From positions 157,385-221,384 of the forward strand of contig JAVHMA010000001.1 in NCBI GenBank assembly GCA_031081715.1: a stretch of 64,000 nucleotides of DNA, given 5' to 3'. Below the pieces are notes generated by a model. It was not told the origin of the DNA. It worked only from the letters and a program-made list of their open reading frames with translations, and searched no databases. Each line of letters starts with the position of its first letter. Positions within the stretch are counted from its first letter, which is position 1. The stretch comes from Armatimonadota bacterium. Its GTDB lineage: Bacteria; Sysuimicrobiota; Sysuimicrobiia; Sysuimicrobiales; Humicultoraceae. Below, one piece after another: positions 5,772-7,290 of this stretch. Position numbers and translations under genes: made by a program.

Positions 5772-5927
5772 ATGGTCGAGCGTCAGGCGGTCCTGATCGT
5801 GCTGTGGGCGCTGGCGGTGATGATCGTGGTGGGCGCGGTGCTGCCCGCGGTCGCGCCAGGGCTGATTCGGTTCGTCAACCGTACGGTGCTCAAGGAGGAC
5901 GCCGCCAACCACCAGTCCGGGCACTAG
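5772..5927 (+). CDS. Small single-pass membrane protein, 51 residues, unknown
   Basis: The ORF begins MVERQAVLIVLWALAVMIV and ends HHQSGH-like (NHQSGH). A strong Shine-Dalgarno GGAGG (from 5762) lies 7 nt upstream of the ATG. One hydrophobic helix covers about residues 6-30, with a short polar basic/acidic tail that would face the opposite side. The stop of the CCA-family gene is 1 nt upstream, so the two are probably cotranscribed. No family is recognised. The ribosome site and the clean hydrophobic helix make it likely to be translated. Confidence 0.6.
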   Translation: MVERQAVLIVLWALAVMIVVGAVLPAVAPGLIRFVNRTVLKEDAANHQSGH

Positions 5928-6017: not shown

Positions 6018-6833
6018 GTGGACGGCGAGGCGCTGGTCATCGGGCTCGTCAACCAGAAAGGCGGCTGCGGCAAGACCACCACGGCCGTCAACCTGAGCGC
6101 CTCCCTGGCGGCCGCGGGCCACCGCACCCTGCTTGTCGACCTCGACCCGCAGGCGAACGCCACGGTCAGCGTGGGCGTGGACCCGGCCACGCTCGAGCGC
6201 ACGATCTACCACGTCCTCGTCGATCCGGACCACGACGAGGGACTGCCGCTCGAGACGGTGATCCGGCCGACGAGCGTCAAGCGGCTGGATGTCGCGCCCT
6301 CGTCGATCGACCTGGCGGCGGCGGAGCTCGAGCTCGCGGCCCGTATCGGCCGCGAGAACTCGCTGCGGCGCCGGCTTGCCGCGGTCCGCGACCGGTACGC
6401 GTTCATCCTGATCGACACGCCGCCGTCGCTGGGCCTGCTGACCCTCAACGCGCTCGTGGCCTGCGACGCCATCGTCATCCCGATCCAGACACACTACTAC
6501 GCGCTGCTGGGGATGCGCCAGCTGCTGCGCACCCTCAAGATGGTGCGGGAGGAGGTCGGCCACCACGTTGAGATCCTCGGGGTGCTGCCGACGATGTACG
6601 ACTCGCGCACGACCATCAGCAAGGAGATCGTCGCCGGCATCCACGACTTCTTCCCGAACAAGGTATTCAAGTCCATCATCCACTTCAACATCAAGCTGGT
6701 GGAGTCGTCGATGAAGGGGGTCCCGCTCTTCGTCACCAACCCCGAGTCGCGCGGCGCCCGCGAGTACGCCAGTCTGGCAGAAGAGGTGATCACGCATGCC
6801 AAAGGCGCGCGAGGAGCTGCGGCGCGGCGTTAG
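6018..6833 (+). CDS. ParA/Soj-family chromosome-partitioning ATPase
   Basis: Deviant Walker ATPase of the ParA/MinD superfamily, 271 residues, beginning at GTG. Walker A is KGGCGKT (14-20) with the signature lysine. Walker A' appears as LLVDLDPQANAT and Walker B as FILIDTPPSLG. Such ATPases bind DNA or membrane and position cargo such as ParB-parS, plasmids or protein clusters. No parB or parS-like gene neighbours it; instead it overlaps by 38 nt the gene for a Cys-rich protein, its probable functional partner. It could therefore be an orphan ParA that places another cargo. Upstream (5928-6017) only a weak TATCTT -10-like string was seen. Confidence 0.9.
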   Translation: MDGEALVIGLVNQKGGCGKTTTAVNLSASLAAAGHRTLLVDLDPQANATVSVGVDPATLERTIYHVLVDPDHDEGLPLETVIRPTSVKRLDVAPSSIDLAAAELELAARIGRENSLRRRLAAVRDRYAFILIDTPPSLGLLTLNALVACDAIVIPIQTHYYALLGMRQLLRTLKMVREEVGHHVEILGVLPTMYDSRTTISKEIVAGIHDFFPNKVFKSIIHFNIKLVESSMKGVPLFVTNPESRGAREYASLAEEVITHAKGARGAAARR

Positions 6834-7290
6834 GAACCTGATCGAGGTCGCCTCCCGGGAAATGGACGCGCTCGACGCCGAGGCGCCTCCGGCGCCGCAG
6901 GCGCCCGAGGTATTCGGTGACGAGCGGCCCGATCGGCCGATCCTCCGCCTGGTCCGCGAGCCGGGGCCCGCGGCGACGCCCGTGGTCGACGAGCCGGCCC
7001 GGGCGAGCGCGCCCGCTCCGCCGGTGCAGCGTGTGCCGGCCCCCACGCGTGCTTTGGCCTCGGCCCCCCCGGCCCCCGTGCTGCACGGGATCCCGGCGGA
7101 CGCGAGCGGGGTGCATCCTCGCCGCGGCGTCTGCGCAGCATACTACGTGAACCACGCGTGCTGGGAGGTTCCCGAGGCGCCGTGCAACCAGGCGCTCCAC
7201 GTCTGTATGCTGCGCGACTGCCCGGTCTACAACCTCAACCGCGACGAGCTGGAGCGCCGCTTCGCGGCGAAGTTCGCGCATCTCTGGTAG
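6796..7290 (+). CDS. Uncharacterised ParA-linked protein with a C-terminal Cys-rich domain
   Basis: 164 residues, overlapping the parA 3' end by 38 nt in another frame, so expression is tightly linked. The N-terminus (1-30) is a basic-acidic amphipathic helix. Residues about 31-100 are a disordered Pro/Ala-rich linker. The C-terminal 55 residues are compact, with five cysteines at 113, 122, 130, 137 and 142 (CX8CX7CX6CX4C) and several aromatic residues (AAYYVNHACW). The pattern suggests a small metal- or FeS-binding fold, or disulfides, but no named family is recognised. A linker plus N-terminal helix next to a ParA resembles the layout of adaptors that stimulate ParA ATPases; that is inference. 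Confidence 0.72.
   Translation: MPKAREELRRGVRNLIEVASREMDALDAEAPPAPQAPEVFGDERPDRPILRLVREPGPAATPVVDEPARASAPAPPVQRVPAPTRALASAPPAPVLHGIPADASGVHPRRGVCAAYYVNHACWEVPEAPCNQALHVCMLRDCPVYNLNRDELERRFAAKFAHLW

Follow-up and report, generated by a model that had tools for sequence, protein, structure and literature searches.

An orphan ParA ATPase and an overlapping cysteine-domain protein probably form a positioning system conserved across a CSP1-3-type bacterial order

In the 64-kb stretch of DNA analyzed here, referred to as the window, the gene of an orphan ParA-type ATPase overlaps that of a small cysteine-containing protein, and the two probably constitute one positioning system in which the second protein is an ATPase-activating cargo adaptor. 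This reading concerns the mechanism and not the cargo. It is well supported by the conserved pairing and gene overlap, by a parAB locus coexisting elsewhere in the genome, by a ParB-like motif in the partner, and by membership of the ParA in a clade of ParB-less ATPases with exchanged partners; on the same grounds, the dedicated ParA adaptor proposed in a preliminary description of this DNA is well supported, although "ATPase-activating adaptor" is a more exact name for it than a protein whose position ParA may set. The pair is undescribed in the libraries and papers searched, and it belongs to the known ParA-adaptor kind rather than to a new type of system. It is of interest because it is present in almost all genomes sampled from an uncultured phylum and because it would provide a short peptide for ATPase activation. 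The features of the locus are as follows.

6018 to 6833, plus strand: gene of the orphan ParA/Soj-type ATPase, 271 aa, GTG start (Pfam AAA_31, 7e-57)
6783 to 6789, plus strand: Shine-Dalgarno-like GAGGTGA of the partner, read from the sequence within parA codons; a GGAGGT/GAGGTGAT-type site stands in the same place in most homologues
6796 to 6833, plus strand: overlap of the parA and partner frames, 38 nt, identical in length in 27 of 30 loci
6796 to 7290, plus strand: partner, candidate ParA ATPase-activating cargo adaptor, 164 aa, ATG start; present in 42 of the 43 genomes and adjacent to parA in all 30 loci read
6808 to 6849, plus strand: putative ParB-like ParA-interaction motif, partner residues 5-18 (REELRRGVRNLIEV), from the ParB N-terminal profile and the AlphaFold2 helix 2-29
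6883 to 7110, plus strand: Pro/Ala-rich disordered linker (pLDDT about 45-59; alignment), varying in length among homologues
7120 to 7287, plus strand: C-terminal cysteine domain, partner residues 109-164, from alignments; one copy per genome, with remote two-CW similarity

As the preliminary description had noted, the ParA frame overlaps that of a 164-residue protein, the two being read in different frames, and this arrangement is closely maintained among homologues. ParA lies directly upstream of the partner in all 30 loci read, and in 27 of them the partner start, which is an ATG, GTG or TTG codon, precedes the parA end by exactly 38 nt. The ribosome-binding site of the partner, embedded in parA, is mostly GAGGTGAT-like across these loci. 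Overlap of the ATPase gene with its neighbor is known in some ParA/MinD-type systems (PMC10241942). The end of the ParA protein (...ARGAAARR) is conserved in the family, and the other frame there encodes the invariant REELRRG of the partner; conservation of this tail is therefore probably a by-product of the overlapping coding.

Using a profile search, the partner and the orphan ParA were found in 42 of the 43 genomes of the order, which comprises CSP1-3-type lineages. The sole genome without the pair, G033 (72% complete), also lacks the orphan ParA, and in G022 only the N-terminal part of the partner is present because the contig ends there. With the single protein as query, 41 of 61 genomes gave a match to the partner, every one from the same order, and a scan of genome contigs with the single protein found nothing, while the alignment-based scan succeeded. 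Among 343 other bacteria, the profile gave one weak, spurious match. Matching records that carry names are listed as Armatimonadetes CSP1-3, "Terrabacteria group ANGP1," or metagenome-assembled genomes (MAGs) of similar label, and we infer that this group is the phylum named Sysuimicrobiota (PMC11604079). The widely shared gene order is mnmA, a YtxH-like gene, cca, a small membrane protein gene, parA, the partner, a HAD gene, a class II tRNA synthetase gene, and rimP. In some loci, a gene that we take from its sequence to be FBPase-like lies nearby on the opposite strand. The protein encoded directly upstream of parA in the window (5772-5927, plus strand) has 51 aa and a single membrane span, and the same position is occupied in this way in many CSP1-3 loci. 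No hint of the cargo was found among the gene neighbors of the pair.

In the AlphaFold2 model of the partner, a disordered middle part separates a helix at residues 2-29 (pLDDT about 90 or more) from a helical C-terminal domain at residues 114-162, in line with the helical N-terminus and disordered Pro/Ala linker described earlier. The linker contains RPILRLVR at positions 6934-6957. Total partner length among homologues ranges from 124 to 353 aa; in L021, L028, L015, and other f7 genomes, the linkers are lengthened (totals of 182-353 aa) and both ends of the protein stay conserved.

To the N-terminal helix we compared a profile built from the N-termini of 30 ParB proteins of ParA loci, with the motif L-G-[RK]-G-L-x-[AS]-L-[ILF]. 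Within the first 45 residues, the profile peaked at residues 5-18 in all 28 partners (4-17 in one), which are not independent of one another, and an earlier, stricter ParB profile picked the same site. Shuffling gave a P value of 0.016 for the window protein; most members had values of 0.02 or less, and the weakest reached 0.1. The consensus of the partner tag, REELRRG[IVL]RxLI, retains the second glycine of the ParB LG[RK]GL and has an arginine in place of the first; R5, R9, and R13 are invariant, and R10 is nearly so. In ParB, the aliphatic and positively charged N-terminal motif is the ParA-binding, ATPase-activating element (PMC12462528). Adaptors generally join a positively charged N-terminus, which in PomX sits in an Ala/Pro-rich region, to an interaction domain (PMC7993993; PMC10241942). 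The partner resembles ATPase-activating adaptors both in this positively charged, putative ParA-interaction peptide and in being encoded beside its own ATPase and conserved with it.

Phylogenetic analysis placed the orphan ParAs in one clade (100/100), apart from the canonical ParAs. For comparison, 20 ParA loci of high score were taken from other bacteria, a small sampling steered by similarity score, and in 16 of these the retrieved stretch contained a ParB match. The ParAs of the four loci lacking one (L078, L088, L073, and L090) group with the CSP1-3 orphans (100/97), apart from the ParB-paired ParAs, the L090 protein being a long branch. The partners encoded there are PilM-PilN, TPR, and FtsZ proteins, and their N-termini match the ParB profile with P values of 0.005 or less. 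At L078:618-2991 and L088:656-3164 (both minus strand), a KGGCGK ParA is followed by an overlapping PilM-PilN fusion with the ParB-like motif at its N-terminus, in two copies in L088, and pilin-like genes lie around; these loci are candidate systems for positioning pilus machinery. A KGGSGK ParA at L073:2482-3312 (minus strand) precedes a TPR protein gene whose product starts NVLGKGIEAIF, a clear ParB-like tag. At L090:1399-3550 (minus strand), the gene after parA encodes an FtsZ whose basic N-terminal extension is similar to the activation motif of ParB (P value of 0.005), and this FtsZ is possibly coupled directly to ParA. Such a clade, in which the partners have been swapped, would reveal the way in which positioning ATPases gain new cargos.

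The group of ParAs with PilM-PilN partners is sister to the CSP1-3 orphans (95/79), and PilM occurs in 40 of the 43 genomes of the order, as would be expected if the pair positioned the type IV pilus machine in the way that the sister clade, in pilin operons, appears to. We consider this improbable, since the partner has no PilM domain, the genes of the pair stand outside pilus operons, and genome G012 keeps the pair with no T2SSE motor over the cut-off and with weak, partial PilM matches only. The type IV pilus was accordingly judged unlikely as an obligate cargo, although at 89% completeness G012 does not settle the matter.

The cargo must occur throughout the phylum, and machines of patchy distribution are therefore unlikely as the general cargo. 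Flagella and chemotaxis, whose genes are reported for two of the five families only (PMC11604079), were rejected on this distribution. Carboxysomes and other bacterial microcompartments (BMCs) were likewise rejected: the shell domain PF00936 occurs in one of the 43 genomes, and the shell genes that mark McdAB systems are absent from the other 42. That single BMC shell domain protein is encoded at G021:C10:58020-58235. Because MinD was detected over its curated cut-off in none of the 43 genomes and the other known cargos are patchy, placement of the division site or of the cell cycle is our leading guess for what the pair does, a weakly held one that is drawn from absences and that we offer as a tentative possibility. 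A broader proposal is slightly more doubtful still: that CSP1-3 bacteria place the division site, or another universal cell-cycle machine, by means of a ParA working on the nucleoid and an adaptor with a cysteine domain, in place of Min, and that this is one branch of an ancient clade of ParB-less ParAs in which the ParB activation tag has come to stand on unrelated cargo proteins (PilM-PilN, FtsZ, TPR, and CW domain).

At its other end, the partner carries the cysteine domain. Its residues C113, C122, C130, C137, and C142 have the CX8CX7CX6CX4C spacing first reported, and none of the five varies among 28 aligned homologues. The domain (residues 109-164) is the most conserved region of the partner, with a mean column identity of 74% in the domain alignment A3, and is closed by an invariant tryptophan, W164. 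The preliminary description could not assign it to a family. This holds for direct searches, as the partner had no match in Pfam, NCBIfam, PHROGs, or the PDB, and Foldseek, run on models of the whole protein and of the domain, likewise gave no PDB match; nor did the search bring up a known family with a role unrelated to ParA. It does not hold for profile comparison, in which a remote similarity to the two-CW family (NF045718) emerged over the CW/Cys core. Aligned with hhalign against 15 two-CW sequences, the domain scored 34.8 (92% probability), compared with at most 18.4 over 100 column shuffles and with 8.3 when the profile was reversed; with an alignment of the short-form subset, the match was shorter and weaker and lay in another register. 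With hmmscan, 21 domain sequences had no match to NF045718 even at an E value of 10 (curated cut-off, 35 bits), and tblastn with the partner found a two-CW protein in L126 at an E value of 0.004 in a small set.

The domain profile also found a 63-aa protein in L132 (also in L133), CPAYKIEKSCWEVPAVPC...CPVY, whose four cysteines are equivalent to C113, C122, C130, and C142 with identical spacing (hhalign, 95.6%). The corresponding genes, L132:2123-2314 (plus strand) and L133:51-263 (minus strand), encode free-standing CW-like cysteine proteins of 63-70 aa directly after a large membrane protein gene, in two genomes of one family. Most of the weak outside matches of the domain profile were set aside as chance; the exceptions are the small CW-like proteins of G188 and G325. 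On these alignments, the domain is probably related to the CW cysteine domains, as a compact form. It shares with the two-CW family the pattern C-x-A-Y ... C-W-x7-C ... C-x-V-Y, but has one CW unit only and another distal cysteine spacing, and is fused to a putative ParA-binding tail. C113, C122, C130, and C142 are the likely ligand set, and binding of a metal or an FeS cluster is plausible given the invariant cysteines. The partner would place a cysteine domain akin to the uncharacterized two-CW family in a functional context for the first time.

Two-CW relatives also sit inside large proteins resembling membrane sensors. Together with the five invariant cysteines, this would suit a sensor of redox state or metal by which ParA activity is switched, with ParA acting on a regulator (DnaA or division proteins, for example) and moving no cargo. 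That arrangement seems unlikely to us, however, as the layout of the partner is the same as that of known adaptors.

The ParA has no ParB neighbor, as had been stated: the only ParB_N match of the source genome lies on another contig, beside a canonical KGGVGK ParA. ParB is present in 40 of the 43 genomes of the order, and the pair is thus conserved where chromosomal parAB lies elsewhere, a point that the preliminary description had proposed to check. The Soj-type ParA and the ParB-like N-terminal motif of the partner might nevertheless point to a DNA-binding centromere protein and hence to a second DNA partition system. We regard this as very unlikely, because Pfam and NCBIfam gave no ParB, HTH, or CopG match for the partner, no parS-like site (TGTTNCACGTGNAACA, 2 or fewer mismatches) occurs within the window, a parAB is already present in the genome, and the mnmA-cca context is a housekeeping chromosomal one.

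The window ParA itself has the signature-lysine deviant Walker A (KGGCGKTTT), the Walker A' aspartate, and the Walker B (DTPPS) of the Soj subgroup of ParA/MinD (A/D) ATPases. Across a 27-member ParA alignment, K14, K19, D43, D133, and R197 are invariant, so that the catalytic residues are all kept; of the basic residues of DNA-binding type, R197 is invariant and K226 nearly so. Against the MinD model TIGR01968 it scored 46 bits, with a cut-off of 213. An FeS-cluster carrier system with ParA as an Mrp/NUBPL-like carrier, suggested by weak P-loop similarity to NUBPL (1e-8), is rejected on sequence as highly improbable, since ParA/Soj structures are by far the closest PDB matches (7e-59) and the Mrp/ApbC scores in NCBIfam are far under the cut-off.

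For the cargo adaptor, we infer the following cycle. ParA-ATP dimers would bind the nucleoid, and synthesis of the partner would be coupled to that of ParA through the overlapping genes. The basic N-terminal helix of the partner (residues about 2-20) would dock on ParA with its ParB-type motif and stimulate ATP hydrolysis, leading to a release-and-ratchet cycle. The flexible Pro/Ala linker would tie this tail to the small cysteine domain, which is probably metal stabilized and which, with its invariant C-terminal tryptophan, may hold the cargo. In McdB, an invariant C-terminal tryptophan docks cargo (PMC11321042), and the partner's tryptophan recalls it by analogy only.

Compared with ParABS (Soj/Spo0J), the pair has the same type of ParA and a ParB-like N-terminal activation motif in the partner, but the partner lacks the ParB CTPase/HTH domain, the window holds no parS, and a canonical ParABS is found elsewhere in the genome. 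It shares with the ParA loci encoding PilM-PilN, TPR, and FtsZ partners the ParA clade, the partner directly downstream, and the ParB-like N-terminal motif; the cargo domain differs, in that there the pilus or cytoskeletal protein itself bears the tag. With McdA/McdB, PomZ/PomX, and PpfA/TlpT it has in common an ATPase and an adaptor with a basic N-terminus, a disordered linker, and a cargo domain, whereas the cargo domain is unrelated in sequence and is here a cysteine domain.
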